Source: Micromonospora sp. CPCC 205371 (GTDB taxonomy: Bacteria > Actinomycetota > Actinomycetes > Mycobacteriales > Micromonosporaceae). From it: a stretch of 53,783 bases of DNA. A program made the translations under genes and the position numbers. Positions within the stretch are counted from its first letter, which is position 1; each line of letters starts with the position of its first letter. Where the stretch lies: NCBI RefSeq assembly GCF_026130045.1, contig NZ_JAIBNX010000019.1, positions 1-53,783 of the forward strand. The letters run 5' to 3'. Under the pieces are notes generated by a model that saw only the letters and a program-made list of their open reading frames with translations, did not search any database and was not told the origin of the DNA. Positions 18,307 through 33,281 of the stretch are shown one piece after another.

Positions 18307-18315
18307 ATGGCGGGT

Positions 18316-18321
18316 TAGGCT
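18316..18321 (+). promoter_or_regulatory. -10 element, leaderless promoter of the MOSC gene
   Basis: TAGGCT sits exactly six bases before the GTG at 18328 and no Shine-Dalgarno lies between. This spacing puts the transcription start at the start codon, the common leaderless arrangement in actinobacteria. Confidence 0.6.
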
Positions 18322-18327
18322 GCCGGC

Positions 18328-18984: not shown

Positions 18985-19088
18985 TACAGGGACAGCCGGG
19001 TCACGTGGTAGCGGGCCTCGGCCGGTAGGGCGGAGGGTGTGGTTGGCACTCTGCGCCGAGCGCAGCTGCCGGAGCGCGAACACGACCG

Positions 19089-19691
19089 TCACGACGACCG
19101 CGACGTCGCCGTAGGGACCACACAGACAGCCAAGGCCATCTCGGCGACGAAGTGTGGCGCGTCGGTCGGATCGAGCCGGCCGGCCGCGACGTCACCTGCC
19201 GCGCCGTGCAGGATGTGATGGAGGACGTTGGCCAGCAGGTCGGCGGGAATGTCAGCCCGGAAGACACCTTCGGCCTGACCGCGACGGATCAGGTCATGGA
19301 CCCGCTGCTCGGGTTTGGCGTGCAGCTCTTGCACGCGGCCGGGCGGCAACGCCGCTTGCGCCGCTTGTAGGACCGAGGCCGCTTGGGCGATCAGCAGCCA
19401 GCCAGACTCCATGAGCGCCCGCAACCCATCGTGGGGATCGCCGGAGAGGTCGACCTCCTCCAGCACCTCGTCTCCCTCTGCCAACAGTCGCGTCAATGCC
19501 GCTTCGACCAGGGCCTCCCGGGACGGGAAGTGCCCGTACAGCGTCACCCTGCCGACCCCAGCCTCCTGAGCGATGTCGTTCATGCTCGCCTCCGGGTCCC
19601 GCCCGAGGCAGGTGACAGCCGCGCGGACGATCTTCTCGGCGTTCTGCCGCGCGTCCGCCCTGCGCGCCGACCTGGCAGTGGCGTGAGCCAT
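19089..19691 (-). CDS. TetR-family repressor, divergent from an efflux gene
   Basis: A 200-residue protein with a TetR_N helix-turn-helix (about 14-60: IVRAAVTCLGRDPEASMNDI then GVGRVTLYGHFPSREALVEA) and an all-helical ligand domain. I chose the ATG at 19691 (MAHATARSARR), which has GGGAG upstream and excludes seven extra residues of the longer frame. It is divergent from the MFS gene, 93 bp away, with two 15-bp inverted repeats between. Such repressors typically bind the pump's substrate and release the promoter. Confidence 0.9.
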   Translation of the reverse strand: MAHATARSARRADARQNAEKIVRAAVTCLGRDPEASMNDIAQEAGVGRVTLYGHFPSREALVEAALTRLLAEGDEVLEEVDLSGDPHDGLRALMESGWLLIAQAASVLQAAQAALPPGRVQELHAKPEQRVHDLIRRGQAEGVFRADIPADLLANVLHHILHGAAGDVAAGRLDPTDAPHFVAEMALAVCVVPTATSRSS

Positions 19692-19715
19692 ATAACTCCC
19701 TAAGTCAAACAACGG

Positions 19716-19730
19716 CTGTACGGGTTACAG
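19716..19730. promoter_or_regulatory. Candidate TetR operator 1
   Basis: CTGTA-CGGGT-TACAG is a perfect 5-bp-arm inverted repeat 25 bp upstream of the TetR start codon, in the divergent tetR/MFS region. Confidence 0.5.
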
Positions 19731-19746
19731 TACCGGAACATAACTT

Positions 19747-19761
19747 GTACACGTCCTGTAC
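19747..19761. promoter_or_regulatory. Candidate TetR operator 2
   Basis: GTACA-CGTCC-TGTAC is a second perfect 15-bp inverted repeat, sharing the GTAC/TGTA core with operator 1, starting 31 bp downstream. It lies 24 bp before the MFS start codon, where binding would block transcription of the pump gene. Confidence 0.5.
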
Positions 19762-19784
19762 GGCTTAGTTCGGAGGCGAGCACC

Positions 19785-21164
19785 GTGTCCGAGTCCATTA
19801 CCGCAAACCCGTCGACCCGCAACCCTGACCCGCGACGCTGGCGAATCCTCGGGCTGGTCGGCGTCGCGCAACTCATGCTCATCCTCGACGTCACCGTCGT
19901 CGCGATCGCACTGCCCCACATCCGCGCGGATCTCGACCTTCAGCGGGAGACTCTTACCTGGGTGGTCAGCGGCTACACCCTCGCGTTCGGCGGGCTGCTG
20001 CTGCTCGGTGGGCGCGCCGCCGACCTGTTCGGTGCCCGCCGGCTCGTCCTGACCGGCCTGCTGCTGTTCTCGGTCGCGTCGTTGACCGCGGGACTGGCCA
20101 CCTCGGGACCCATGCTGCTCACCGGTCGGGTGGCCCAAGGCATGGCCGCCGCCATGCTGTCCCCAGCGGCGCTGTCGCTGATCGTCACCATCTTCGACGG
20201 CGACGAACGCAACCGCGCGCTCGGCATCTGGTCCGCACTCGGTGGAAGCGGCGCCGCGCTCGGCGTGCTGCTCGGCGGAGTCCTCACCGCCGGACCGGGC
20301 TGGGCATGGATCTTCTACATCAACGTCCCGGTCGGCCTCGTGCTGCTGGCCGTCCTGCGCTCCTATCTGCCGGCACAGCCGGCGCCCGCGAGTGGAGCCC
20401 GCCTCGACGTTCCCGGCGCGGCCCTGGTGACCACCGCGACCGCGGCCCTGATCTACGCGCTGATCAGGGCCGGAGACCACGGCTGGACCACCCGGACCAC
20501 CGCCGCGCTGCTCGCGGTATCGGCAGCCCTGTACGCCGCGTTCGTGACGCGTCAGCGCATGGCAGCAAGCCCGCTGATGGACCTACGGCTGCTGACCCGC
20601 AGACCCGTGGCGACCGGCACTCTGTTGATCCTCGTCGCCACCGCGCTCATGATCATGATGTTCTTCCTCGGCACGTTCGCCCTACAGGAGCATCACGGCT
20701 ACGGCGCGATGATGACCGGGCTGCTCTTCCTGCCCATCGCGCTGTCCACCATGCTCGGCGCCAACGCGGCCGGACGCATCATCGGCCGCACCGGGCCCCG
20801 CACCCTGGCAGTGATCGGCCTTATCGTTGCCGCCGCCGGTATGGCCATACCCGCGATCTGGGCCGGCGCCGCCCCCCCGGTGGGCGGGCCGGCGGTTGCG
20901 GCGGGCGGCACCCGGGGGGCGGTCGGGGGGGCCTCGGCGACCGCGCTGGGGCAGGTGGCGGCGCAGGAAGCCGGCCTCGCCTCGGGAATCGTCAGCACAT
21001 TCCACGAGTTTGGCGCCTCACTGGGCGCGGCCGTCGCGTCGAGCATCGCCGCTGTCAGTATCGCCGGCACCGGCACCGAGGGCTTCTCGCGTGGCTTCAC
21101 CACCGGCGCGATCGTCGCCGTCGTGGCTGCCGTCGCGGCGCTCGCCATCAGATCCGGCCGTTAG
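19785..21164 (+). CDS. DHA2-type MFS drug efflux transporter
   Basis: A 459-residue polytopic membrane protein of the EmrB/QacA (14-helix) type. Motifs seen are LDVTVVAIALPHIRADL in helix 1, WVVSGYTLAFGGLLLLGGR with the ADLFGARR loop 2-3 motif, GRVAQGMAAAML, and the motif C-like GGSGAALGVLLGGVLT in helix 5. It should export drugs by proton antiport. The GTG start at 19785 has GGAGG upstream. Residues about 363-386 are odd: a Gly/Pro/Arg-rich run replaces what should be a hydrophobic helix, encoded by nearly pure G/C with runs of 7 C, 6 G and 7 G, before conservation resumes at ASATALGQVAAQEAGLASG. This may be a sequence error. The acetyltransferase gene follows after 10 bases. Confidence 0.88.
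   Translation: MSESITANPSTRNPDPRRWRILGLVGVAQLMLILDVTVVAIALPHIRADLDLQRETLTWVVSGYTLAFGGLLLLGGRAADLFGARRLVLTGLLLFSVASLTAGLATSGPMLLTGRVAQGMAAAMLSPAALSLIVTIFDGDERNRALGIWSALGGSGAALGVLLGGVLTAGPGWAWIFYINVPVGLVLLAVLRSYLPAQPAPASGARLDVPGAALVTTATAALIYALIRAGDHGWTTRTTAALLAVSAALYAAFVTRQRMAASPLMDLRLLTRRPVATGTLLILVATALMIMMFFLGTFALQEHHGYGAMMTGLLFLPIALSTMLGANAAGRIIGRTGPRTLAVIGLIVAAAGMAIPAIWAGAAPPVGGPAVAAGGTRGAVGGASATALGQVAAQEAGLASGIVSTFHEFGASLGAAVASSIAAVSIAGTGTEGFSRGFTTGAIVAVVAAVAALAIRSGR
20869..20943. other. Anomalous G/C-monotonous stretch inside the MFS gene
   Basis: Within an otherwise well-conserved transporter these 75 bases are almost only G and C, with homopolymers C7 (20872-20878), G6 and G7, and encode Gly, Pro, Arg and Ala where a membrane helix is expected. 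The frame is kept on both sides. It looks like a base-calling or assembly problem, or a true local divergence. Confidence 0.5.
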
Positions 21165-21174
21165 GAGTCGAGGC

Positions 21175-22506
21175 ATGGCAACCGAAACCGACCGCTATGT
21201 GGTCCGGGCCGGCCGGGCCTCCGACGCCACCGAGCTCGCCCGCCTACAGGCATCGGTCCAGCTTCAGGCGGTGACCGGCGGGCAACCGCACCTCGGCATC
21301 GCCGCCTGGGTTGAAGACCTGCTGGACGGTCACCCCTCGGTCGTCCCCGACGACTTCCTGGTCGCCGAGGACACGGCCACCGGCCGCGCGGTCGCCAGCC
21401 TCGTGGAGCTGCGGCAGCATTGGAGCCTAGCCGGGGTCCGACTGCCGGTAGCCCAGATCGAACTGGTCGGCACGGCGCCGGACCACCGCGGAAACCGGCT
21501 TACCGAACGGCTGTTCGCCTCACTACACCGGCGGCACGCAGCCAACGGCACGCCGATCCAGATCATCGAGGGAATCCCGTACTTCTACCGGCGGCTCGGC
21601 TACGACTATGCCCTGGCGAACGACGGCGCTCCGACGGTGCCCGCCACCGCGCTACCCACCACCGAGCAGGACCGGCCGGACGGCTCCTCCACCGGCCTGA
21701 CGGTGCGCCCAGCCACCGTCGCCGACGTGGACCACCTCGCCGACATCGACCGGCGGCTCGCCAACGGCAAGGCCCTGACCTGCCCCAGGGATGCGGTGGT
21801 GTGGCGGTACGAGATCGCCGGGCGCCGCGACGCGGACCTCGCCCGGCGCGCCGTCGCCGTCCTGGTGCACGGCGCCGACGTGCGGGGCTATCTGGTTCAC
21901 AGTGCCCGGCTCTCCGCCGCTGGTGAGCTGATGGTGTTCGCGGCAGCCTGCAAGGAATCGGCCGACTGGCTACGGGCTGCCGCTGCCATGCACGCACACC
22001 TGCGCCACGTCGGCCGACGGTACGAGGCAGCGGCGGGACGACCGTTCACCGCGGTCCGCCACCTCCTCGACCCGGACCACCCACTGGCCCGACTCGGCCC
22101 GCCCGGCATACCGCAGCGGCCCAGAGGTTGGTACGCCCGCACCGGCGACCCGGCCGGCCTGCTCGCCCGGCTACAACCGCTGCTGCGGGCTCGCTGGCAC
22201 GCGGCAGACCTGCGATGGCACGAGCCAACGCTCACCATCGACACGTACGGCCACGCCGCGCGTCTAGAGTTCACCGACGGTGAACTGACGGCCGTGACCG
22301 CCACCCGCGGCGGCAGCCCGGCCACCGCCCCGCAGACCCACGCGGCCATCCCACCCGGCGCTCTGCTCCAGCTCGTCCTCGGTCACCGCACCCTGCCCGA
22401 AGTACTGGACATCTGGCCGGACTGCCTCGTGCGGGACCGCCTCACCGAACACTTCCTGGCCACGGCGTTCCCCCAGGTGCCGGTCCGGGCCTGGCCCCGC
22501 AACTGA
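21175..22506 (+). CDS. Eis-like GNAT-family N-acetyltransferase
   Basis: A 443-residue protein with the Eis architecture: an N-terminal GNAT domain (about 1-150) carrying the acetyl-CoA loop in VGTAPDHRGNRLTERLF, a second GNAT-like domain starting LTVRPATVADVDHLADIDRR, and a C-terminal sterol-carrier-like part (LRWHEPTLTIDTYGHAARLEFTDGEL when read in two pieces). Eis enzymes acetylate amines of aminoglycosides and other substrates; the substrate here is unknown. The ATG at 21175 has RBS AGGAG overlapping the end of the MFS gene, so the two are co-translated. Pump plus acetyltransferase behind a TetR repressor suggests a resistance or self-protection unit. Confidence 0.85.
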   Translation: MATETDRYVVRAGRASDATELARLQASVQLQAVTGGQPHLGIAAWVEDLLDGHPSVVPDDFLVAEDTATGRAVASLVELRQHWSLAGVRLPVAQIELVGTAPDHRGNRLTERLFASLHRRHAANGTPIQIIEGIPYFYRRLGYDYALANDGAPTVPATALPTTEQDRPDGSSTGLTVRPATVADVDHLADIDRRLANGKALTCPRDAVVWRYEIAGRRDADLARRAVAVLVHGADVRGYLVHSARLSAAGELMVFAAACKESADWLRAAAAMHAHLRHVGRRYEAAAGRPFTAVRHLLDPDHPLARLGPPGIPQRPRGWYARTGDPAGLLARLQPLLRARWHAADLRWHEPTLTIDTYGHAARLEFTDGELTAVTATRGGSPATAPQTHAAIPPGALLQLVLGHRTLPEVLDIWPDCLVRDRLTEHFLATAFPQVPVRAWPRN

Positions 22507-22575
22507 CCAGCGGGCGAGCCAGAGGTACCCCACCGTCGCACGTCCTTCGGGCCCACGGCGGCTCGGCACTGGTGA

Positions 22576-25254
22576 TCACCGGCTGAGGAGGTCGCGGATC
22601 TCGTCGTACGCGGCCGGCTTGCCAGTGCGCAGCGCGGCGATGTCGGCCGCCTCCTCGGCCGGGTCGTCCCAGAGGGCGTCGCGTGCGCCGCGGGCGGCGT
22701 CCAGCTCCGCGGCGAGTGCGGCCCGATCGTCGTCGCCCGCGTCGTCGAGCCGCCCGCGCAGCTCCTCGATGCGGTCGCGGAGAGCGCGGTCGCGGGCGAA
22801 CCGGTCCGCGAGATCCGGGTCGGCGGCATCGGGCAGCGCGTTGGCGAGGTGGTGGACCAACTCCCGGGACCGTGCCAGCTCGCTGAGCGCGAACGCCTGC
22901 AGCGCCGGCTCGAAGTCGCCGGTCGTGACGGTGGCGACGAGGTTCGGCTGCTCGGGCACCTCAGCCAGGATCTGCTGGACGGCGTACTCGTAGACCTGCG
23001 CCGCGGTGCCACCGACCGCGATGCGAGCAGCGGCGTCCAGCGCCGCGGCCCGGATGTGTTCCTGCGCGGCCACCGAGGCGAGCAGGTCGCGCTTGGCTCC
23101 CTCGATCGCGCCGTACTCGGCCAGTAGCGTGGCGCGCAGGTAGAGGGCCCGCTGCAGGGCGGCGGTGTGCCCCTGGCCGCGGGCGAGAGTCACCGCCTTG
23201 GTGTGGCTGCGATACGCCTTCACACCGCGGCCGGCGATCGCATGGTGGATGCCGACCATCAGGTACCACTCGGGACTCTTACGCGGCATCACCCGCACCG
23301 CGGCCCGGATCTGCGACCGGGTCGGCTCCTCCGACCCGGTCGTGGGGAGCAGCACGCGCGCGGCGGCGAGCCTACGGCTCTGCTCGCGCACGTACGACGA
23401 GGAACTGAACAGCCAGCGGAGGCCCGCCGTGCCCATACCGGCCACCCGGGCCTCGACGCGGATGGCCCGCCGGGTCCGGCGCGAGATCCGGATAGACGCG
23501 GCGGCGTCCAGGGCCGCCCGCGACGCCACGTCGTCGCCGTCCTCAGCCGCTTGGACCGCCCGCAGCAGGTGCAGGTCGCGCCGGCGATAGTCGTCCAGGG
23601 TCTCGTCGAGCCGCGCGGCCAGCGCCGCCGCCTCGGCGCGGCGGCCCAGCTGGTACAGCGCTCGCACCCGGATGACCTGGCAGCTCTGCTGGTGGCCAGG
23701 CAGGTCCGCCTGCTCCCAAAGCCCGGCCGCCTTTTCGATCTCGACCAACATCTGGTGGTAGAGCCCGCGCCGGTCCGCCGCCATGGCGTCGAACTCGGCG
23801 GCCAGGGCGCACAGGATCGCGTAGCGGCGCATCGTGACCGGGTGCGGGCTGCCGCCGAGCGCGGTCGCCTCGATCGCGCCGCGGGCCATCTCGAAGAGCC
23901 GGCGCCACCGGGCCGCCTGCTCGTCCGAGTCGGGCATCGGGGAGGGTCGGCGGCCCGCGCGGGCGAGCGTCCGGTACGCCTCGAGCGTGGGGCTGTACCG
24001 GTCGTCCAGGATGGTGCGGAACTCCTCCACCAGCAGGCACTTGGCCAACGTCAGGTCAGGCCGGGACGGCCGCCGCAGTACGGCGTCGTGCACCCAGACC
24101 CCGATGGTGTGAGCCGGCACGTCGTCGTTGTCCGCGAACAGCGGCCCCGCCATCGCCGCACCGGGGTTCACGTACAGGTCGGTTAGGGCCGGCCGGTACT
24201 CCGACGCCCACCCGCGCACGTATCCGGAAGTGTGGCTCAACGCGATCAGTACGGCGACCGTGGCCGCCGCCGGCCACACCACCGGGTCGGGCTGCCACAC
24301 CATCAGCAGGACCAGCACGCCGGTGTGCGCGAGGACGCGGTGGATGCGGGTCACCACCGACACAGCGCCGCCGACGGTCCGCTGCTGCAGCGGAAGCACC
24401 ACGGTGAGGAGCGCCAGGTCGGCCACCAGCAGCACCAGTGGCACGACAAGCTGCAGGTCGTGCTCACCGAGGGAACTCCAGTAGGAGACCAGGACCGCGC
24501 CGACAGGGCTGACGGCCAGCCCCCATGCCAGTGCCGCCGAGCCGAGCGCGCCACCCAGCACCATCAGCCTGGACATGCGCGGCAGGCCGCTGCTCAGCCC
24601 CAGGACCGCCCAGGTCCCGAGGGAGGCGGCGAGGCCGAGCAGGGCGAGGGCGCCTGACCAGGGCAGGTCCGTGTGCGTCGCGCCCCAGAACCCGGCCACG
24701 GCCGGACCGCCCGCCACCAGGTAGGTCAGCGCCACCACCGCGGACATCCATCGGCGCCGGCTCTTGAGAGGCACCACGACCCACCCGCCCGGAGTATCCA
24801 CAGTGGTCTCGACCCGATGGTCCCACGCCTCGTCGATGATCTTCCCGACCAGCGGGTCGGGAAGCCGGGCGCACAGTGGCCGCAGCTGGGCCGTCAGCAG
24901 AAGCGGTACCGCGAAGAGGCCGACCAGGCGCTCGTCGGGGATCACGAACGCGAAAACCATGCCGCACGCCAGTCCGAAAAACTGCCAATTCAGCAGGCCG
25001 AGTACGACTGCGGGCAGCAGCAGCGCGGTCAACCAGCCATCCGGCCAGGACGCGAGCATCCGCAGTGGACCGGACAGGACCAGCGCTGCCGCGACACCCC
25101 CGACCAGCGGCCCGAGGCCCGCGACAGCAACCATCAATCGGGTACGCGGCGGCTGGGCGCGCACCACGTAGAGCGAGTTGGCGAACAGGAACAGATACAG
25201 GAACAACAGCGTGAACAGCACAACCATGCTGACCACGTACCACCAGCCGGGCAC
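22576..25254 (-). CDS. Membrane protein with C-terminal TPR/pre-CHAT helical region
   Basis: An 892-residue protein. Residues 1-370 hold about ten hydrophobic segments (MVVLFTLLFLYLFLFANSLY, WLTALLLPAVVLGLL and others). The rest is soluble and helical with TPR-like units (QLGRRAEAAALAARLDETL, AYRSHTKAVTLARGQG, LYLRATLLAEYGAIEGAKR). The last 135 residues have the helical pattern that precedes CHAT protease domains (FALSELARSRELVHHL, then ALRDRIEELRGRLDDAG, ending KPAAYDEIRDLLSR), yet the frame stops there. The matching CHAT domain is the divergent gene starting 106 bp away. GTG start; the minus-strand TAGCGT at 25262-25267 lies seven bases before it, with no RBS, so the mRNA is probably leaderless. 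Expected role (inferred): a membrane scaffold or sensor controlling the CHAT protease. Confidence 0.75.
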   Translation of the reverse strand: MPGWWYVVSMVVLFTLLFLYLFLFANSLYVVRAQPPRTRLMVAVAGLGPLVGGVAAALVLSGPLRMLASWPDGWLTALLLPAVVLGLLNWQFFGLACGMVFAFVIPDERLVGLFAVPLLLTAQLRPLCARLPDPLVGKIIDEAWDHRVETTVDTPGGWVVVPLKSRRRWMSAVVALTYLVAGGPAVAGFWGATHTDLPWSGALALLGLAASLGTWAVLGLSSGLPRMSRLMVLGGALGSAALAWGLAVSPVGAVLVSYWSSLGEHDLQLVVPLVLLVADLALLTVVLPLQQRTVGGAVSVVTRIHRVLAHTGVLVLLMVWQPDPVVWPAAATVAVLIALSHTSGYVRGWASEYRPALTDLYVNPGAAMAGPLFADNDDVPAHTIGVWVHDAVLRRPSRPDLTLAKCLLVEEFRTILDDRYSPTLEAYRTLARAGRRPSPMPDSDEQAARWRRLFEMARGAIEATALGGSPHPVTMRRYAILCALAAEFDAMAADRRGLYHQMLVEIEKAAGLWEQADLPGHQQSCQVIRVRALYQLGRRAEAAALAARLDETLDDYRRRDLHLLRAVQAAEDGDDVASRAALDAAASIRISRRTRRAIRVEARVAGMGTAGLRWLFSSSSYVREQSRRLAAARVLLPTTGSEEPTRSQIRAAVRVMPRKSPEWYLMVGIHHAIAGRGVKAYRSHTKAVTLARGQGHTAALQRALYLRATLLAEYGAIEGAKRDLLASVAAQEHIRAAALDAAARIAVGGTAAQVYEYAVQQILAEVPEQPNLVATVTTGDFEPALQAFALSELARSRELVHHLANALPDAADPDLADRFARDRALRDRIEELRGRLDDAGDDDRAALAAELDAARGARDALWDDPAEEAADIAALRTGKPAAYDEIRDLLSR

Positions 25255-25261
25255 GCGATGA

Positions 25262-25267
25262 ACGCTA
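25262..25267 (-). promoter_or_regulatory. -10 element of the membrane/TPR gene (leaderless type)
   Basis: On the minus strand TAGCGT precedes the GTG start (25254) by seven bases, the same spacing as other leaderless promoters in this window. Confidence 0.45.
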
Positions 25268-25283
25268 TGGCCTGCGCGGCCAT
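25267..25283. promoter_or_regulatory. Palindrome at the membrane/TPR promoter
   Basis: ATGGCC-TGCGC-GGCCAT has perfect 6-bp arms and abuts the -10 of the minus-strand gene on its upstream side, a position suited to a repressor or activator. No regulator gene is linked. Confidence 0.4.
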
Positions 25284-25323
25284 CCAGCCGAGCCGCTGTC
25301 CGGAAGCCGACTGAGCGTCACAC

Positions 25324-25337
25324 CACCGTGCACGGTG
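25324..25337. promoter_or_regulatory. Perfect 14-bp palindrome at the CHAT promoter
   Basis: CACCGTGCACGGTG is fully self-complementary and lies 11 bases upstream of the CHAT -10, overlapping the expected -35 position, where no TTGACA-like sequence is visible. Confidence 0.45.
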
Positions 25338-25348
25338 TGCGGACTGGC

Positions 25349-25354
25349 TAAGAT
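25349..25354 (+). promoter_or_regulatory. -10 element of the CHAT operon (leaderless type)
   Basis: TAAGAT is followed after exactly six bases by the ATG at 25361; no Shine-Dalgarno is present. Confidence 0.55.
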
Positions 25355-25360
25355 CCTGGC

Positions 25361-26620
25361 ATGGCCGAGCCTCGCGTGGTCATGGTCCACTACCAGGTCA
25401 CCGAGGAGAATACGATCGCCTTCGTCGGGCGGGAGGATCTGGCCGCACCACACGTCCAGCGCATCCCGTTGCCCCAGGCCGCACTGCGAGACCTGGTCGG
25501 CTCCACATTCGGCACCATGCCGGTACGGGCCTTCCGCAGCCAGTCCCCGGCGTCCTGGGCCGATCCCCTCCGGCCCCTGGTCGACTTTCTCGAGGACTGG
25601 TCGGCGCCTGAGGACATCATCTGGTTCGTCCCCCACGACGTGCTGCACCACGTGCCGCTACACGCGTTGGAGGTCGACGGCGAGTGCCTCATCGAACGCA
25701 ACGCCGCCGCGTACACGCCGAGCGCGTCCGTCCTGAAGTACGCCCGCCGGATGCGCCGCCCGGGACGCACCCGGGCGCTGGTACTGGCCGATGCCCGCGC
25801 CGACCGGCCACTCGTGCACGGCCGCGAGCAGGCCGCCCGAGTGAACGAGATGTACGCCCCGGACGCCGAACTAGCCGTCGGCCCGGCGGCTAGTGTCGAC
25901 CGGCTGGCCCGGGGCGCGGCCGACGCACCCGCCGGCCTCGCGGTGCTGCACATCGCCTGCCACGGCGAGTTCAACCGGGCCGACGCGGAACACTCGGGGC
26001 TCTGGCTGGCGCCGACCGAGACGCACGACGGCCTGCTGCGCGCCGCCGACCTGGCCGCCATGGCGCTACCGACCAACCTGGTCATGCTCAGTGCCTGCGA
26101 AAGCGGGCTCACCGGCCGCCTGCCCGGCAACGAACTGCTCGGCTTGACCCGAGCACTGCTTTACGCCGGCGCGTCCTCCGCCGTGGTCACGCTCTGGTCG
26201 GTCGACGAGCTGTCCACCAGCGTGCTGACCGCCGCGTTCTATGGGCGGCTCGCCGCCGGGTACGGGGTAGCCGCGGCGCTGCGCGAGGCCCAGCGCGCGC
26301 TGCGCCGCACCACCCTCGCCGACCTGCTCGACTACTGCACCACCGGCCGCGCCGGACCAGACCACACCGGGACGCTGCTCGACCTGGACGTCGCGGCCAT
26401 CCACCTGGCGGCCGGCGACCCCGCCGCGGCGCTGGCCGGCTACCAGCGCGTAGCCGCCGCCCAACCCACCGGGTCGCCCTGGTACGCCGCCGCCGTCCGG
26501 GGAAGCGCCGCCGCCCGGCTGGCGGCTTCGGGCCCCCACCGCACACCCGACTACAGCGCCCGGCCATACCGGCACCCGTACTTCTGGGCGCCCTTCTACC
26601 TAATGGGTGACTGGCGATGA
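25361..26620 (+). CDS. Stand-alone CHAT (caspase-like) protease
   Basis: A 419-residue protein that is almost wholly a CHAT domain, the caspase-fold peptidase usually fused to TPRs (family known from HetF and from TPR-CHAT effectors). The N-terminus starts exactly at the domain edge (VVMVHYQVTEENTIAFVGRE). It continues with WFVPHDVLHHVPLHALEVDG, the catalytic His201 in HIACHGEF, Cys246 in LMLSACESG, RALLYAGASSAVVTLWSVDE, and the closing HPYFWAPFYLMGDWR. Between about residues 325 and 400 lies an insert with a TPR-like helix pair (AAIHLAAGDPAAALAGYQRV). Cytosolic, no signal peptide. The next gene overlaps by ATGA. Expected activity (inferred): a cysteine peptidase that cleaves partner proteins when triggered; its target is unknown. 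Confidence 0.9.
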   Translation: MAEPRVVMVHYQVTEENTIAFVGREDLAAPHVQRIPLPQAALRDLVGSTFGTMPVRAFRSQSPASWADPLRPLVDFLEDWSAPEDIIWFVPHDVLHHVPLHALEVDGECLIERNAAAYTPSASVLKYARRMRRPGRTRALVLADARADRPLVHGREQAARVNEMYAPDAELAVGPAASVDRLARGAADAPAGLAVLHIACHGEFNRADAEHSGLWLAPTETHDGLLRAADLAAMALPTNLVMLSACESGLTGRLPGNELLGLTRALLYAGASSAVVTLWSVDELSTSVLTAAFYGRLAAGYGVAAALREAQRALRRTTLADLLDYCTTGRAGPDHTGTLLDLDVAAIHLAAGDPAAALAGYQRVAAAQPTGSPWYAAAVRGSAAARLAASGPHRTPDYSARPYRHPYFWAPFYLMGDWR

Positions 26621-27120
26621 CCTCACTGCGCGAACACGCCGACCACTCCGGGCGGTACGTCGTGATCCACCGGCCCGGGCAGGGCGTGCTCGGCATGGGC
26701 ACCGCCGAGGAGCTGCGCGACGCCGTGGAGTCCGGCGCCCCGCCACCGCCCGCCGTGCTCGTCCCGGCCGACTGGACGTTCGCCCAGCTCGTCGAGTCGG
26801 ATGTGATCACCCTGCTGGACCTCACCACGGCCGGCGTGGTGCTGATGGACGGCGGCCGGCCCGCCGGGGTGGTACCGCTCGATCGCATCCGCCGGTACCT
26901 CATCGACGAGGGGTCCGCGGTCCGCACCAGAGTCCAGGGCGACGGCGATGCAGCCGCGGACGCCGTCTTGCCCGGCGACTACCAGACCGGCCGCGCCCGC
27001 GTCGCCTGCGCCGCCCCCGGCTGCGGATACGTCAACACGCTCGCCTTCTTCGACCGCAACCGGCCGCCCACATGCGCCAACACGGCCCTGCCCACGCACC
27101 CGCTCAGCATCAGGCGGTGA
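26617..27120 (+). CDS. Small protein with C-terminal zinc-ribbon-like motif, coupled to CHAT
   Basis: A 167-residue protein I do not recognise as a named family. Its ATG overlaps the CHAT stop (ATGA), implying coupled translation and similar amounts. The first about 110 residues are a compact alpha/beta region (YVVIHRPGQGVLGMGTAEEL, VVLMDGGRPAGVVPLDRIRR), whose second part looks like half of a CBS-like module. The C-terminus has cysteines in CAAPGCGYVN and PPTCANTALPTHPL, a C-x4-C...C...H pattern that could bind one zinc. As the middle gene of the CHAT operon it may be a regulator, a substrate or an adaptor of the protease; this is inference. Confidence 0.75.
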   Translation: MTSLREHADHSGRYVVIHRPGQGVLGMGTAEELRDAVESGAPPPPAVLVPADWTFAQLVESDVITLLDLTTAGVVLMDGGRPAGVVPLDRIRRYLIDEGSAVRTRVQGDGDAAADAVLPGDYQTGRARVACAAPGCGYVNTLAFFDRNRPPTCANTALPTHPLSIRR

Positions 27121-27127
27121 CCGGACG

Positions 27128-28138
27128 ATGTTGACCTCGATGCTCCAGGAGACCACCGCGGTACTGGACCGACGGTTCGCGGTCACCGCGTTCCTGCCCA
27201 GCACCCTCCTCGTGGGACTGCTCGGTGTGGTCGCCGCGGTCAGCTGGCTCGGCCGACGCGACGCCGCCGACGCTTGGAACGAGATGGACAACCTCAGCCG
27301 CGGGCTGCTTGCCGTGGGCGTGATCCTCGCCGGCATGCTGCTGGCCACACTCGCCGTACGCAACGCCACCGGACTGATCCGGCTCTACGAGGGCTACTGG
27401 AGTTCGGCGCCCGGCCGCCGCCTCGCCCGCCTCGGCAGCAACCACCACCGCCAACGCCTCGCCGCCCTCGCTGACAGCGCCGGCTCCGACCCGGCCGCGT
27501 ACCGCCGGATCCACCTCGGCTACCCGCTGCCCACGCAGCCGGAGCTAGTCATGCCCACCACCCTGGGCAACATCCTGCGCAACGCCGAACTGCATCCCCG
27601 CGACCGCTACGGTATCGACGCCGTACTCGTGTGGCCCCGCCTCTACGCGCTGCTGCCGGACCGTATGGCGAGTCTCGTCGCGGCCGCCCGGGCCGACCTC
27701 GACTCGCTGCTGGTCACCTCGGCGCTGGCATTGGCGTTCGCCGTCGCCGCCGGCGGCAACGTGCTGGCAGCCCACGGGCCGGCATGGCTGTTCGCCACGT
27801 GCACCGCCGCCGGGCTCGCCGTGTCCTGGGCCGGCTACCGCTCCGCCATCCGCGCCGCGGTCGTGTACGGCCAGCACGTGAAGGTGGCCTTCGACGTGTA
27901 CCGCAACGACCTGCTCCAGCAGATCGGTCTCCCGATCCCCGAAGACGGCGCGGCCGAGCTCCGGTGCTGGGAGCGGCTCGGACTGCTGTGGTACCGCAAC
28001 GTGCCCGGCGCCGCAGAGGAGTCACCCCTCCCGGCACCGCAACCAGCATCGACCCGCGGCCTTCCGCTGGGACGGACCGCCCTTTGCCTGGCCGCAGCCC
28101 TCACCGCCTGCGGCACGGCCTACCTCGCGATGACCTGA
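27128..28138 (+). CDS. Membrane protein of the CHAT operon, unknown function
   Basis: A 336-residue membrane protein, starting 7 bases after the previous stop. There are two hydrophobic helices near the N-terminus (FLPSTLLVGLLGVVAAVSWL, LLAVGVILAGMLLATLAV), a cytosolic-like section of about 110 residues, two more helices around residues 200-238 (LLVTSALALAFAVAAGGNVL, LFATCTAAGLAVSWAGY), and one at the C-terminus (TALCLAAALTACGTAYLA). No known domain is evident. Its place in the operon suggests a second membrane partner of the CHAT system, possibly the effector or anchoring subunit. It converges on the cupin gene 11 bases away, which marks the likely end of the unit. Confidence 0.78.
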   Translation: MLTSMLQETTAVLDRRFAVTAFLPSTLLVGLLGVVAAVSWLGRRDAADAWNEMDNLSRGLLAVGVILAGMLLATLAVRNATGLIRLYEGYWSSAPGRRLARLGSNHHRQRLAALADSAGSDPAAYRRIHLGYPLPTQPELVMPTTLGNILRNAELHPRDRYGIDAVLVWPRLYALLPDRMASLVAAARADLDSLLVTSALALAFAVAAGGNVLAAHGPAWLFATCTAAGLAVSWAGYRSAIRAAVVYGQHVKVAFDVYRNDLLQQIGLPIPEDGAAELRCWERLGLLWYRNVPGAAEESPLPAPQPASTRGLPLGRTALCLAAALTACGTAYLAMT

Positions 28139-28149
28139 AGGCAAGCCTT

Positions 28150-28659
28150 CTACCGGAGATGCTCCAGTCCGTAGCGGGCGACGACGTCCGGCAGCCAGGC
28201 CGGCTCCTCGAACTCCAGGCCGTACCGCTCGGCGAGGCCGACGCCCTGCTCCGCCTCGACCGGACCGGCCGCGATCATCTCGACGACCTCCCGGAAGAAG
28301 TGCTCGAAACCGGCCGGACTGATGATCTCGATCATGCGGGCCGGCACCTGGCCGGCGTTCCACATCGCGTGCAGCTCGCCGCGTGGCTTGGTGATGTACC
28401 CACCCGCGCCCAGCACCACTTCCCGGTCGCCGGAACGGAACCCGATCTCGCCTTCGGTGACGATGGAGTACTCGTCCTCGCGGGTGTGCCGGTGCGGCGC
28501 CACCAGCGCGCCGACCGGAAACGGGTGCTCCACGATGGACAGGGCCCCGCCCGTGTCGTCACCCCACAGCTTGAACTGCACGCCGATCGAGCCCAGCAAG
28601 CCGCTGCGGCCCTCGCCCGGGCGCACCACAGTCAGCGGTGGTGGTTCCTCACGTGTCAT
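28150..28659 (-). CDS. Cupin-domain protein
   Basis: A 169-residue single-domain cupin. Motif 1 is visible as APHRHTREDEYSIVTEGEIGF (read in two parts), with the two His and the Glu that bind metal, and motif 2 as KPRGELHAMWNAG with the last His. A C-terminal helical tail (FFREVVEMIAAG, YGLEFE) is typical of the cupin_2 proteins annotated near oxidoreductases or dioxygenases. The reaction is not inferable. It follows the TAP-type hydrolase with a 12-base gap on the same strand, so co-transcription is possible, though a TAGGAC sequence six bases before the ATG may give its own start. Confidence 0.87.
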   Translation of the reverse strand: MTREEPPPLTVVRPGEGRSGLLGSIGVQFKLWGDDTGGALSIVEHPFPVGALVAPHRHTREDEYSIVTEGEIGFRSGDREVVLGAGGYITKPRGELHAMWNAGQVPARMIEIISPAGFEHFFREVVEMIAAGPVEAEQGVGLAERYGLEFEEPAWLPDVVARYGLEHLR

Positions 28660-28671
28660 CCGATCGTCCTA

Positions 28672-30345
28672 TCATCGAAGGACGCTCCCCCGCCAGGGCC
28701 GTGTCAGGACGGGAGGTGTCACGCCGCGCGGTGCGACCCGGGAGATGGCCGGTGGGTCCGCGAACGGGACGACGTCCACGCCGCACACCGTGCGCCGGTG
28801 CGGTGCCCGACCGGTGAGCAGGTACCGGCTGACATGACCGTCCACACAGGAGGACGAGAGGAACAGTGTGGTGTGGCCCCAGCCCTCGACCGTGATCAGT
28901 GACGACCGCGGCAGCATCCGGGCAGTGCTCACCGCATCCTGGTAGCGGGTGGCCGGGTCGGCGCGATTACCGATCACCAGGACGGTGTTGGCGGTGCGCC
29001 GGTCGAACGGACCGGTGTACCGGTCGGTGTCCTTGCCCGGCCAGAACGCGCAGACGCTGGAGCTCCAGTTCCAGATCCGGCCAAAGTACGGGTACTTCCG
29101 GTCCGCTCGCCGGGCGGCCTGCCCCCAGGCGGAGACGTGGTCGGGATTGTCCGTGTCCGCGCAGGTGACCCCGGCGAAGCCCTCCAGGGCCTGCTCGTAC
29201 GGCTGCCGCCGCGGCCGGTCGAGCCGAGCCTGCAGGTCACGCAACGCCTTCGCGGCCGCCGCCGGCTGGGCCAGCGTATCCAGCTGCTGGAGCAGCTCGG
29301 CGAGGTCCGGCCAGGCGGCCGGGTCATACAGCGCGCCGAGCGTCGCGGCCACCAGATCGGTGTACCCGAACGGGATCGTGCCGCCTTCACCGTCGGGCAG
29401 GCTGACCGGCTTGGCCCGCAACCTCTTCGCCAGCCGGTCGTACCGCCGCTTCGGGTCGCCGGCGGAGAACGCGCAGTTGTCACCGCCCCGGTCGCACAGC
29501 CGCAGGAAGCCCAGCAACGTCTCGTAGGCGCCCTGCTCACTGACCAGCCGAGCGTCCACTGGCAGCCTTCGGGCCTCGTCGCCCCGACCGGTCGCGAACG
29601 ACACCGGATCGATCACACCGTCGATGATCACCGCACGAACGCGATCCGGGAACATGTTGGCGTACGTGGAACCGATGTAGGAGCCGTACGAGTACCCGAC
29701 GAAGGTCATCTTCTGATCGCCGACCGCGCGACGCAGAAGGTCCATGTCGCGGGCCACGTTCGCGGTCGACATGTGGTCGATGATCGGTCCGGCCCGGCGG
29801 GCGCAAGCGTCCGCGTACGTGCGGTTGCTGGCGATCCACTCCTGCTCCTGCGCGCGGGTGAACGGGAACGCGAACGGCGGCAGGACCGCCAGCGCCTCCT
29901 CCGTGGTGTCAAAACACTGCACCGGTGTACTTCGGGCGATGCCGCGCGGGTCGAAACCGATCAGGTCGAACCTGGCCCGCACCTCGGCGGTGTAGAGCTG
30001 CTTGCCGAAGACGTGAACGAAGTCCACACCGGAACCGCCAGGGCCGCCGGGGTTGAGAAACAGCGAGCCGATGCGGCGGGCCTTGTCGGTCGCCGGCAAC
30101 CGCGTCAACGCCAATGTGATCTGCGCCTCCCGCGGGTGGTCGTAATCCAGCGGCACTGTCGCGGTCGCGCACTCGAAACCAGGCGCGGCCGGCTCACACG
30201 CCCGCCACACCAGTGACGGGACAACCGGGCCGGGCGGCCCGGCCGTCGCGACCGCCGGTGCCGGCAGCAGCACGCCCGCGAGACCAACGACCAGCACCCA
30301 CCGGCACTGCCGCACGACCGGACGCAGGCAAGACGACAGTGTCAT
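28672..30345 (-). CDS. Secreted TAP-like alpha/beta hydrolase (peptidase S33 family)
   Basis: A 557-residue exported protein. The ATG at 30345 has a GGGGG RBS and starts a signal peptide (CRWVLVVGLAGVLLPAPAVA). The alpha/beta hydrolase core has LFLNPGGPGGSGVDF (oxyanion region), FDLIGFDPRGIARSTPVQC, and the nucleophile elbow GYSYGS; a large helical cap follows. The TAP-like C-terminal domain contributes NTVLVIGNRADPATRYQDA (acid) and VEGWGHTTLF (His). This is the pattern of Streptomyces tripeptidyl aminopeptidases, which trim tripeptides from extracellular proteins. A second paralogue lies at 31666-33135, with an Ag85-like esterase between. Confidence 0.9.
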   Translation of the reverse strand: MTLSSCLRPVVRQCRWVLVVGLAGVLLPAPAVATAGPPGPVVPSLVWRACEPAAPGFECATATVPLDYDHPREAQITLALTRLPATDKARRIGSLFLNPGGPGGSGVDFVHVFGKQLYTAEVRARFDLIGFDPRGIARSTPVQCFDTTEEALAVLPPFAFPFTRAQEQEWIASNRTYADACARRAGPIIDHMSTANVARDMDLLRRAVGDQKMTFVGYSYGSYIGSTYANMFPDRVRAVIIDGVIDPVSFATGRGDEARRLPVDARLVSEQGAYETLLGFLRLCDRGGDNCAFSAGDPKRRYDRLAKRLRAKPVSLPDGEGGTIPFGYTDLVAATLGALYDPAAWPDLAELLQQLDTLAQPAAAAKALRDLQARLDRPRRQPYEQALEGFAGVTCADTDNPDHVSAWGQAARRADRKYPYFGRIWNWSSSVCAFWPGKDTDRYTGPFDRRTANTVLVIGNRADPATRYQDAVSTARMLPRSSLITVEGWGHTTLFLSSSCVDGHVSRYLLTGRAPHRRTVCGVDVVPFADPPAISRVAPRGVTPPVLTRPWRGSVLR

Positions 30346-30494
30346 GGCGCACCCCCAGGACCGTCCGGCCCATGTTCGCCGGACCCGACCAATGTATGAC
30401 CTGCCGGGCCGGCTCGCGCCCCGAACACCATCGAGCCGCAATGGTCAGACACAACACCGCCGTGGCGCATGCGGTTGTCGCCACGCCTGCGCGC

Positions 30495-31463
30495 TCAGCG
30501 GCCGCCCGCCAGCGCGCGGAGCAGCAGCGGCAATGACCGGTGCAGCTCGCGCTCCCAGTAAGGCCATGAGTGGCTGCCCGGCCCGTAGAAGTCGGTGGTG
30601 AGCCGGACGCCGACGGCTCGCAGCCGGGTGGCCAGCACCTGGTTCATGTCGAGTAGGTACGCTTCGATCTCGTCGAAGGTGCCGGGCGGGTCGAACGGTC
30701 CGGCGGCGCCGTTCCCGCACGACAGGAAGACCGGCGTGGCCCTTAGTCGCTTGGCGAGGAAGTACGGGTCGTGTGCCTCCCAGATCCGGCGCTGCGCCAC
30801 GGGATCGCCCCACAAGTCCAGCGGGTCCTCACCGAACTCCGCTATCAGTCCCATGAGCCCCTGCGGGTCCGACAGCGGGTGCACGGTGCCGCTGTAACTG
30901 GCCGCTGCCCGGAACATGCCGGGGTGCCGCGCGGCATAGGTGAGCGCGCCGAATCCGCCCATGGACAGACCGGCGACGACTCGCCGATGCCCGGCCCCGT
31001 AATGGCGTTCCAGCAGCGTGCGTAGCTCGCGCAGATGGAATGTCTCCCACGCGGGTGGGCCGCCGGCGCCGCCGTTCCACCAGTTGCTGTAGAAGCCGAC
31101 CTCGCCGGCCTCCGGCATGACGACCAGCACGTGGCGCAGCTGAGGCAGCGTCTCCACGTCGGTCTCGCTGGTCCAACTGTCGTACGTGGCACAGCAGCCG
31201 TGAAGCAGATAGAACACGGGCCAGCGGTGCTTTGGGCGGCGCTGGTCCCAGCCTTCCGGCGTGAGCAGCCGCACCTTGGCGGTGCGGTCGAGGGCAGGCG
31301 ACGCGATGGTCAGGTCCACCAACCGTGGACCGACCCGCTGCTCGGCGACCACTCGTGCGCCGCCGGCAGACGCCCGCCCATCGGCGGGCGCGGCTCCCGG
31401 CAACGGCGCCTCCGACGCCGCGGTCGGCTTTCTTAATGAGCGGCGAAGACGGTTACCAGGCAT
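30495..31463 (-). CDS. Esterase D / Ag85-like alpha/beta hydrolase without a clear signal peptide
   Basis: A 322-residue hydrolase of the putative-esterase (PF00756-type) family. VFYLLHGCCATYDSWTSETD and VLVVMPEAGEVGFYSNWWNG are the family's N-terminal blocks; the nucleophile elbow is GLSMGGFGAL, the acid would be in the DEIEAYLLDM region and the His in GPGSHSWPYWERE. Relatives include mycolyltransferases, tributyrin esterases and feruloyl esterases, most of them exported. Here the N-terminus is a 40-residue Arg/Pro/Ala-rich stretch with no hydrophobic core, although the ATG has a good RBS (GGAGG). A perfect 17-bp palindrome lies 108 bp upstream. It sits between two TAP-type hydrolases on the same strand. 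Confidence 0.87.
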   Translation of the reverse strand: MPGNRLRRSLRKPTAASEAPLPGAAPADGRASAGGARVVAEQRVGPRLVDLTIASPALDRTAKVRLLTPEGWDQRRPKHRWPVFYLLHGCCATYDSWTSETDVETLPQLRHVLVVMPEAGEVGFYSNWWNGGAGGPPAWETFHLRELRTLLERHYGAGHRRVVAGLSMGGFGALTYAARHPGMFRAAASYSGTVHPLSDPQGLMGLIAEFGEDPLDLWGDPVAQRRIWEAHDPYFLAKRLRATPVFLSCGNGAAGPFDPPGTFDEIEAYLLDMNQVLATRLRAVGVRLTTDFYGPGSHSWPYWERELHRSLPLLLRALAGGR

Positions 31464-31570
31464 GACATGCCTCCAGACCTACGGCACCACGGCGATCGTA
31501 AGGCCGCCACCCGCATGATCGCCGGGAATCGGCCGTACGGCCCGTCACCGCACGGCGAGGGCCCACCCGA

Positions 31571-31587
31571 AAGTGGACCGTCCACTT
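31571..31587. promoter_or_regulatory. Perfect 17-bp palindrome upstream of the esterase gene
   Basis: AAGTGGAC-C-GTCCACTT has perfect 8-bp arms. It lies in the 202-bp gap between the second TAP-type gene and the esterase, 108 bp from the esterase start codon. No linked regulator is an obvious match. Confidence 0.5.
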
Positions 31588-31665
31588 CGGCCATCCCCCG
31601 CCCCGCCGGGGCAACGCTGGCTGGCAGCAGCGTCGCCCCAGAACGAGGGTCATGGGTACGCGGGA

Positions 31666-33135
31666 TCAGCCCTCACAGACCCGGTCAGGCGCCGATTGTG
31701 GCCTGATGAGGTACTGGTCCGACGCGGTGCGGGCGCACTCCGAGGTGTGGTACGAGGTGTGTCCGTCGCCGGTACGGGTGAGGATGTCGCTGCCCTTGAT
31801 CTGGGCGGCGAGGCCGTGCGCCCACTTGTAGGGGTCGGAGGAGTCGTACACGGAGTGCACGATGAGGGCGGGCACCCCGGTCACGTTCAGCAGCCGGGGC
31901 GGGTTGGCGGCCGGAACGGGCCAGCCGATGCAGCCATTGACCCACCAGGTGTAGGAGGCGCCCTGCAGGTGCGGCGCGAGCCGGCGGCCCATCTGGATGC
32001 GCTGGCGCATCTGTGCGTACGTGTGGATCTGGGGTACATACTCCATGCACCCGATGGCGAGGAAGCTCAGCTGGCTCAGGTCCACCCCGGCGGGTGCCAG
32101 CATGAAGGTGGCGGCGTCTCCGGCGACAGCGCGGGCGATTGCCCTGGACAGGCCGGCCCAGGAGGTGTCGGGCCCATAGATGGACGGTTCCTTGAGGGTC
32201 AGCAGCTCGACCGTCCTCATCCGGATGTCCTCGCCGGTGACCGGGCGCAACGCACCGTCGACCGGGATGGGGTGCTGGTCCGCGCCGGCGACCAGACGGT
32301 CGAAGACGGCGCCGACGTCCTGCCCGCGCAGCGCACAGGTCGGTGCGGTGTCGCACCAGCGGGCGAACCGGTTGAACGACTCCTCCACGCCAGCGATTTC
32401 GTCGGCGGCTTGCAGTACCTCGGGTTGGCTGTGCTCCAGCGCGGAGTCGAGCACCATTGCGCGGGTACGTCGCGGATAGAGTTCCGCGTAGTTGGCGGCG
32501 ACCTGGGTTCCGTAGGACAGGCCGAGCCAGCTCACCTTCTCCACGCCGAGGGCGATCCGCAGCGCCTCGTGGTCCCGGGCGACGCTCACAGTGTCGGTAT
32601 GTGCGACCAGTGATCCGGTCACCCGCAGGCAGCCGAGCCCGAGCTCGCGATTGTGCCGGCGCTGCGCTTCGAATTCCTGTTCCGACTTGGGGAAGAGCGT
32701 GGAGGTCGGGGTGAACGCCGGTACGCCGCACCGTACCGGCGCGCTGCCGCCGGTCGCGCGCGGGTCAAGGCCGACGATGTCGAACCGGGCGCGCAAGGTG
32801 GCCGAGAAGATCTGCTCGGCGGCCACGACGTACTGGGCCGCTCCGTCACCGGGCCCGCCTGGGTTGAAGAACAGTGTGCCGATGCGGCGGGCCGGATCGT
32901 CGGCCACGCGGCGCGCCACGGCCACGGTGATCTGTGCGCCACGGGGTTTGGACCAGTCCACCGGAACCTGCATGGTTCCGCATTGCTTGGTCGGGGCTTC
33001 CGGACAGGCGGTCCAGTCGACGCTGTACCGCGGCGGCGAGCCAGCGGCAGAGGCGGTGGGCATGAAGCCGGCGGTGACCGCGGCGACCAACAGGCCGCTG
33101 GCGAACAGGCGCGTGTGCGTGGGATGTCGTCGCAT
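31666..33135 (-). CDS. Secreted TAP-like alpha/beta hydrolase, second copy
   Basis: A 489-residue exported hydrolase, paralogous in layout to the one at 28672-30345 but shorter. The ATG at 33135 (MRRHPTHTRLFASG) starts a clear signal peptide ending near PTASAA; the longer open frame upstream has no signal and is rejected. Core motifs are LFFNPGGPGDGAAQY, FDIVGLDPRATGGSAPVRC, the nucleophile elbow GLSYGTQ, VPALIVHSVYDSSDPYKWA (acid) and GDGHTSYHTSEC (His). Probably an extracellular aminopeptidase or esterase. The divergent histidine kinase starts 146 bp away, so the promoters share this space. Confidence 0.9.
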   Translation of the reverse strand: MRRHPTHTRLFASGLLVAAVTAGFMPTASAAGSPPRYSVDWTACPEAPTKQCGTMQVPVDWSKPRGAQITVAVARRVADDPARRIGTLFFNPGGPGDGAAQYVVAAEQIFSATLRARFDIVGLDPRATGGSAPVRCGVPAFTPTSTLFPKSEQEFEAQRRHNRELGLGCLRVTGSLVAHTDTVSVARDHEALRIALGVEKVSWLGLSYGTQVAANYAELYPRRTRAMVLDSALEHSQPEVLQAADEIAGVEESFNRFARWCDTAPTCALRGQDVGAVFDRLVAGADQHPIPVDGALRPVTGEDIRMRTVELLTLKEPSIYGPDTSWAGLSRAIARAVAGDAATFMLAPAGVDLSQLSFLAIGCMEYVPQIHTYAQMRQRIQMGRRLAPHLQGASYTWWVNGCIGWPVPAANPPRLLNVTGVPALIVHSVYDSSDPYKWAHGLAAQIKGSDILTRTGDGHTSYHTSECARTASDQYLIRPQSAPDRVCEG

Positions 33136-33281
33136 GGATTCACCGTTGCAGCCGGGATCGAAGCCGGTAAGCCGGGTAACTCGCCGATGGACGGCCGGTT
33201 TACTGGTGTATCCGGGCCGATAGGACGACGCCACGCCCCCTGACGCGCCCGTACGGTGAACGAAAGGATTGGAGGAAGTCG

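Follow-up and report, generated by a model that had tools for sequence, protein, structure and literature searches.

We analysed a stretch of 53,783 nucleotides from Micromonospora sp. CPCC 205371 (contig NZ_JAIBNX010000019.1; host genome of 9.36 Mb), hereafter called the window, and describe a module of four genes at 22576–28138 that comprises a standalone CHAT protease gene, a divergently transcribed membrane-protein gene and two further partner genes. A sequence-only reading of this DNA had proposed a split TPR/pre-CHAT and CHAT protease with a zinc-ribbon-like protein and another membrane protein downstream. All four open reading frames, P0001 to P0004, are intact and lie where that reading had placed them, P0003 starts within the end of P0002 through an ATGA overlap, and the zinc motif and hydrophobic segments of the downstream proteins were recovered; the gene arrangement stands as described. 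A second, codon-model gene caller returns the same four genes, in one run with the P0002 start at 25376, and the start of P0001 is ambiguous between GTG1 and ATG10. Loci and genomes used for comparison carry L and G numbers.

22576–25254, minus strand: P0001, 892 amino acids, membrane protein with a pre-CHAT linker at its C-terminal end, the proposed membrane-anchored regulatory chain
24382–25254, minus strand: hydrophobic (membrane) region of P0001, residues 1–291, from a Kyte-Doolittle scan
22582–23340, minus strand: P0001 residues 639–891, matching the pre-CHAT region of fused relatives by profile and hhalign
25361–26620, plus strand: P0002, standalone CHAT protease, 419 amino acids
25961–25963, plus strand: codon of the catalytic His201
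26096–26098, plus strand: codon of the catalytic Cys246
26617–27120, plus strand: P0003 (P3), 167 amino acids, half-CBS-like stretch; zinc-ribbon-like CCCH motif at the C-terminal end
27007–27099, plus strand: zinc motif of P0003, Cys131/Cys136/Cys153/His161, which recurs in relatives
27128–28138, plus strand: P0004 (P4), 336 amino acids, membrane protein with four hydrophobic segments

The protease gene P0002 and the membrane chain P0001

P0002 matches the Pfam family CHAT (PF12770) with 186.2 bits at a cut-off of 24, and the seven distinct solved sequences that it matches are all CHAT or TPR-CHAT/Csx29 proteins. Counted along the alignment of P0002 with 7x8a_D, His201 and Cys246 coincide with H585 and C627 of Csx29, respectively, so that the two residues that had been singled out do stand in the right motifs. 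H585 and C627 form the dyad of Csx29, and replacement of C627 by Ala or Ser abolished activity (PMC9729208). The dyad is unchanged in all 24 members of the CHAT subfamily to which P0002 belongs. By eye, a helical, TPR-like stretch occupies approximately residues 316–405 of P0002 (window 26306–26575), before a C-terminal FWAPF..GDW motif; the CHAT copy at L250 scores 19.7 bits with TPR_12, below the Pfam cut-off. Six further CHAT matches above the cut-off lie elsewhere in the same genome (G000).

P0001 has no match in Pfam, PADLOC, NCBIfam or the PDB sequences. Its first 291 residues contain ten hydrophobic segments by a crude Kyte-Doolittle scan and eight by a count that allows no overlap, in line with the approximately ten membrane helices predicted for it. 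For its C-terminal part, we used a pre-CHAT profile of 324 positions derived from 14 fused relatives of the same subfamily, which covers the ~260 residues before CHAT and the first 60 residues of CHAT itself. Residues 639–891 of the 892 residues of P0001 correspond to profile positions 16–266 (E=1.6e-21), and residues 5–53 of P0002 correspond to positions 269–317. The two proteins therefore show a complementary break within one profile, in which position 266 is the last for P0001 and 269 the first for P0002. None of 1000 shuffled sequences (best 10.4) reaches the 62.9 bits obtained with the C-terminal 150 residues of P0001, and hhalign of the last 260 residues against the profile yields a probability of 98.0; the resemblance to a pre-CHAT region noted by the sequence-only reading is thus borne out.

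A pre-CHAT profile derived from 18 fused CHATs of a distant, P4-linked clade does not detect P0001 (hhalign probability 3.0). The profile from the 14 relatives also matches 62 of 79 CHAT loci from public genomes, mostly of other phyla, which argues that TPR-CHAT proteins in general have this pre-CHAT region. Judged from these alignments, the membrane chain P0001 stops at the point where CHAT begins in fused TPR-CHAT relatives, and P0002 is the CHAT domain missing from P0001, with its His/Cys dyad intact. The two genes very probably encode two chains of one protease.

Split and fused forms and the origin of the split

We surveyed gene neighbourhoods and fused homologues among related genomes, based on 25 CHAT matches, of which 20 were fetched, four were already part of the set and one (G508, open frame of 1084 amino acids) was left out. 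Close CHATs (E<=1e-90) are rare in the four groups searched, with 9/295, 10/250, 5/250 and 1/35 genomes, or at least 25 of 830 genomes overall; these presence counts are lower bounds, as a limited number of candidates was scored per genome. Standalone CHATs of the subfamily occur at 11 loci, and at every one of the 11 a separate gene with a pre-CHAT-like tail lies in the same region. This partner is (i) upstream on the same strand at L205 (with a 4-bp overlap), L251 and L252, (ii) downstream on the same strand at L118, L247 and L253, (iii) convergent and behind P4 at L179, L214, L249 and L274, and (iv) divergent in the window only. At default settings the pre-CHAT profile found the partner at nine of ten loci, L118 being the one missed, and the partner at L274 was found in a later search. 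The L118 partner is a 1261-residue TPR protein; with filters off, its C-terminal 130 residues reach 31.9 bits, a score matched by 0 of 1000 shuffles. Hydrophobic segments were found in nine of the 11 split partners by a crude scan; the L118 partner has none, and the membrane region of the L274 partner was recognized by eye only. L274 is located on a plasmid of Streptomyces sp. NBC_00158, where the P3 gene between CHAT and P4 (L274:9213–9729) is unannotated and looks frame-broken.

The alternative that P0001 and the CHAT gene are unrelated genes and neighbours by chance would agree with the lack of a database family for P0001, but is contradicted by the complementary profile break, by the shuffled controls and by the pre-CHAT-like partner at all 11 standalone-CHAT loci; we regard it as scarcely credible. 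The set of split pair, P3 and P4 is found in several families of the same class, Streptomyces included. Fused relatives, in which a transmembrane (TM) region, TPR and CHAT form one TM-TPR-CHAT chain, were also found, for example at L250 and L255, and retain the same P3 and P4 partners. Among the 79 CHAT loci from public genomes there is no clear case of a standalone CHAT; at L061, L084, L086 and L088 the CHAT begins within 90 residues of the frame start, and these were dropped as split candidates, lying near the left end of short contigs where the genes are probably cut off. At L245, L246 and L248, a fused TPR-CHAT gene is accompanied by a separate membrane-type pre-CHAT gene without CHAT. This combination, together with the interchange of fused and split forms, suggests that linker and CHAT subunits assemble in larger complexes.

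In a tree of 24 CHAT rows, the fused/split label requires five changes, at least four of which are forced by well-supported branches, and a single split clade is rejected (p-AU 0.034). A tree with 18 outgroup rows again requires five changes with at least four forced. It places the CHAT row of the window in one group with the fused L250 and L255 and the split L205, at a support of 94/86, which is below the program's star, and leaves the basal forks open. One of the 18 outgroup rows, L211 (460 amino acids), was counted as fused although it is not a long fused gene, and L243 (open frame of 1005 amino acids, missed by the gene caller) is missing from the trees. Because the outgroup rows are fused, the fused form is probably ancestral, as far as these trees can tell, and the split form arose or reversed more than once.

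The sequence-only reading had derived the divergent pair from an inversion within an ancestral TPR-CHAT gene. The geometry fits, since a flip of the 5′ part of a single TM-TPR-CHAT ancestor would leave both starts facing outwards, as in the window; the outgroup rows are fused, and the nearest CHATs by tree path, L250 and L255, belong to fused genes that have hydrophobic N-terminal regions and P3 and P4 downstream. Ten other split loci, however, have their partner upstream, downstream or convergent, so splits occur without such an inversion, and the label changes repeatedly on the trees. A divergent membrane-protein gene already occupies the same slot at L250 and L255, and we found no fused relative in which the flanks are conserved. 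The inversion is one possible origin, which we consider rather unlikely.

The gene in this slot belongs to a membrane family of 581–638 amino acids without a pre-CHAT tail (A type), which adjoins a CHAT or pre-CHAT gene and is divergent in three of four cases:

L250:5048–6964, A-type membrane gene
L255:4969–6849, A-type membrane gene
L252:12699–14444, A-type membrane gene
L205:14544–16349, A-type membrane gene

P0001 matches the A-type profile with 27.5 bits over residues 53–587, including its extra N-terminal membrane segments. Since the divergent slot in the fused loci L250 and L255 already holds a related membrane gene, P0001 may be a paralogue of the A-type family that carries a pre-CHAT tail, and not a product of inversion. 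An A-type gene would then have gained or kept the tail while a fused gene lost its TPR part, and no inversion would be needed; the extra separate pre-CHAT gene at the fused loci L245, L246 and L248 agrees with this route. The profile of the split partners (B type) nevertheless fits P0001 better (48.3 bits, residues 183–740), a weak test given that A and B are related, and descent of P0001 from the A type remains doubtful in our estimate.

The region between the two starts was described as carrying a leaderless-type −10 element and a palindrome for each gene. It contains the following features:

25255–25360: divergent intergenic gap between P0001 and P0002, 106 bp
25324–25337: perfect 14-nt palindrome CACCGTGCACGGTG, a possible regulator site, within chance by palindrome count
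25349–25354, plus strand: TAAGAT, placed like a leaderless −10 before the ATG of P0002, by sequence inspection

Relative to the start codons, TAAGAT spans −12 to −7 (P0002, ATG) and TAGCGT −13 to −8 (P0001, GTG). A sigma-70 promoter scan found no promoter, and the window contains seven perfect 14-nt palindromes compared to approximately nine expected from base composition, so that the palindrome was dropped as a special feature. On the other side of P0001, synteny with the same-genus genome G004 (84% DNA identity, window 19108–22506) ends exactly at the stop codon of a GNAT gene beside the module. A clean empty site in G004 was considered and rejected: the left flank aligns over this interval with different genes beyond it, and the right flank lies partly elsewhere in G004.

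The partner proteins P3 and P4

P3 and P4 match no family above cut-off in the libraries scanned (Pfam, PADLOC and NCBIfam). The zinc motif of P0003 has the spacing C-x4-C-x16-C-x7-H, and the protein has no hydrophobic segment in the Kyte-Doolittle scan. Its CBS match is weak at 12 bits, and that of its G008 relative reaches 18.8 bits, both under the Pfam cut-off of 24. The central block of P0004, PTTLGN..E..YG.D..WPRL, is conserved. We rejected a SAF-like domain, a resemblance seen by eye at the C-terminal end of the L118 P4, as Pfam shows nothing there.

Among the loci selected by CHAT (L242–L261, n=20), P3 and P4 are each present at 18, so that the conserved neighbourhood for which the survey was made does exist. 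Where CHAT, P3 and P4 occur together, they lie on one strand in 22 of 22 loci and in the order CHAT, P3, P4 in 21, with L254 showing the order P3, P4, CHAT. P4 matches were obtained in 40 of 394 genomes of the class, and its presence within ~20 kb at 18 of 20 CHAT loci is therefore far above background. Of the 51 P4 matches of this genome search, 40 were fetched in addition to G000 and G008, and nine weaker ones were left out. Conversely, we collected loci selected by P4 (n=52) and found CHAT within the fetched region in 28 of them; none of the 24 CHAT-less loci has a pre-CHAT match. Small zinc-motif proteins beside P4 at L144 and L147 resemble P3 mostly at the C-terminal end. Three of the CHAT-less loci (L191, L213 and L216) share neighbours of 584 and 253–259 amino acids, perhaps a different system that uses P4, and the CHATs of the distant P4-linked clade match in pieces at L187, L194, L198, L203 and L210, indicating broken genes or sequence errors. 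Taking the profile break, the gene neighbourhoods and the fused homologues together, the proposal of a split module with two partners is strongly supported.

Beyond these collections, on plasmid pC052_A of Nostoc sp. C052 (L275:6449–12557), genes for a 126-residue zinc-motif protein and for a homologue of P4 lie immediately 5′ of a caspase gene of 1557 amino acids with Peptidase_C14, NA-iREase1, NACHT and WD40. Since the zinc-protein/P4 pair precedes this gene, the pair is not tied to CHAT. Plasmids of Rhodococcus opacus (L276:6354–11672) and Streptomyces goshikiensis (L277:6369–11525) encode a protein of 132 or 141 amino acids and P4, followed by a large CHAT gene, an additional gene order for the set.

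Proposed mechanism and comparison with known systems

We consider it fairly probable that the locus as a whole encodes a caspase/separase-like CHAT protease in two chains, along with two conserved partners, and that this module is gated by the linker and has a role in conflict. In Craspase, the CHAT domain resembles eukaryotic separase and is gated by a linker domain, and RNA lying in the TPR–linker cleft shifts the linker by up to ~20 Å, opening the CHAT pocket (PMC9729208). We propose gating in trans because the Craspase linker gates CHAT, while here the linker sits on the membrane chain and CHAT is separate. P0001 would dock on P0002 and gate the protease in trans, as the TPR-CHAT linker of Craspase gates its own CHAT in cis; by this analogy, trans gating is somewhat favoured. 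The trigger could be an event at the envelope or membrane; alternatively, the TPR-like part could bind a ligand from the cytosol. The released protease would cleave P3 or P4, P4 being the likeliest. Cleavage would turn the P3/P4 pair, until then a quiet complex at the membrane, into one that causes damage or raises an alarm, and as part of a response to conflict, for example with phages, the cell would stop growing or die. That P3 and P4 are the substrate or effector has slightly less than an even chance, and defence or cell death as the purpose of the module is an evenly balanced matter.

The conflict reading draws on the record of CHAT in Craspase and Borvo and on the neighbours in G008 and on the Nostoc plasmid. 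Directly upstream of its split CHAT operon, G008 carries two such genes (L118:3256–8583), one for Trypco2, which is described in PMC7159879, and one for a 1666-residue Trypsin_2-CHAT-AAA-TPR protein. Housekeeping or developmental membrane proteolysis, for example in envelope stress or sporulation signalling, would instead agree with membrane anchoring, which suits envelope sensing, and with the count of defence genes among the ten flanking genes scanned, which is zero. The patchy presence of close CHATs (at least 25 of 830 genomes), the existence of a plasmid copy and the conflict-type neighbours in G008 and Nostoc speak against such a role, and we rate it as improbable.

Several observations weigh against the two-chain, linker-gated conflict module. 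Binding of P0001 to P0002, protease activity, substrate and phenotype are all points that we infer. Pfam finds no TPR in P0001, and its TPR-like label comes from relatives. At L252 and L253, the partner match ends near profile position 185, so that the linker is shortened; L252 has a second, insignificant piece at positions 252–270. P3 and P4 are not detectable at L251 and L256, P4 occurs without CHAT at 24 of the 52 P4-selected loci, and the P3 profile matches at just six of these 52. None of the 79 CHAT loci from public genomes, mostly of other phyla, has P3 or P4, which are therefore not part of CHAT proteases in general. In 60 related genomes there is no match to P0001 or P0003, and P0002 has one near-full-length match, in G008. 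The G008 P3 (46.5% identity over query residues 45–86) was missed by the first search and found later (E=0.009), which argues that P3 evolves fast and that counts of its absence are soft. Single-sequence AlphaFold2 models are unusable, with a predicted local distance difference test (pLDDT) value of 35.5 for P0003 and 44.8 for P0004. Finally, the module is flanked by ordinary genes (GDSL lipase, MOSC, TetR, MFS, GNAT, cupin, TAP-like hydrolases, esterase and histidine kinase) and not by a defence island.

The natural two-chain form parts the gate from the blade, so that gating can be tested by mixing the chains, and the repeated changes between fused and split forms provide natural controls. 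P3 and P4 are a candidate substrate or effector family, directly testable, because they match no family above cut-off in the libraries scanned and P4 stands beside a caspase-NACHT gene. More tentatively, actinomycetes may hold a class of membrane-bound, two-chain, trans-gated caspase-like proteases whose activating linker sits on a separate membrane sensor, with P3- and P4-type proteins as a portable death or alarm pair for unrelated caspase-fold proteases, namely CHAT in actinomycetes and caspase-NACHT-WD40 in Nostoc, and with a linker/CHAT contact that works in trans; the interconversion of split and fused forms argues that this contact would be strong enough to do so.

The module resembles Csx29/Craspase in the order TPR, linker, CHAT and in a His/Cys dyad at aligned places. 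Csx29, in contrast, is one chain bound to gRAMP. Here, two oppositely oriented genes encode the chain, which is interrupted between linker and CHAT, a membrane region forms part of the sensor half, and the neighbours are P3 and P4. P0002 reaches 63 bits with the NCBIfam Csx29 model (NF041237), well below its cut-off of 300, and the ten flanking genes scanned (16864–35006), to which the search for gRAMP/Cas7-11 was confined, contain neither. The fused TM-TPR-CHAT proteins share the same partners in the same order (e.g., L250 and L255), with 46% CHAT identity for L250, and differ in being one polypeptide instead of two. Bacterial gasdermin operons, in which a caspase-like protease lies beside a membrane-active partner, serve as a working analogy. 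P4 differs by its several hydrophobic segments, and Pfam shows it no match to gasdermin or to any other family.

EACC1-caspase is a two-gene membrane system in which the single-TM EACC1 domain is encoded 5′ of the caspase gene (Kaur et al. 2020, PMC7159879). It shares with the module its prevalence in actinobacteria, membrane association, a caspase-superfamily peptidase and a constant small partner; here, however, the peptidase is CHAT, followed downstream by a zinc-ribbon-like protein without hydrophobic segments and a membrane protein with four. Pfam and NCBIfam scans gave no EACC1 match, and CATRA (caspase and TPR-repeat-associated; PMC8195603) domains have no match in the four proteins in the same libraries, whose inclusion of EACC1 and CATRA models is unchecked. 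Borvo, listed as CHAT (PMC10952713), differs in that its PADLOC profile BovA matches only part of the CHAT of P0002 (25.8 bits, residues 195–318, profile positions 549–670 of 711) and not over its full length, while the present module has several genes and a membrane chain. In the open-licence literature, the titles and abstract beginnings among the matches listed hold no description of a split CHAT or of the P3/P4 gene set. On these comparisons, the module is not Csx29, not Borvo and not EACC1-caspase, though its protease is of the CHAT family, and the split CHAT with its P3/P4 set is apparently an undescribed variant of CHAT proteases.

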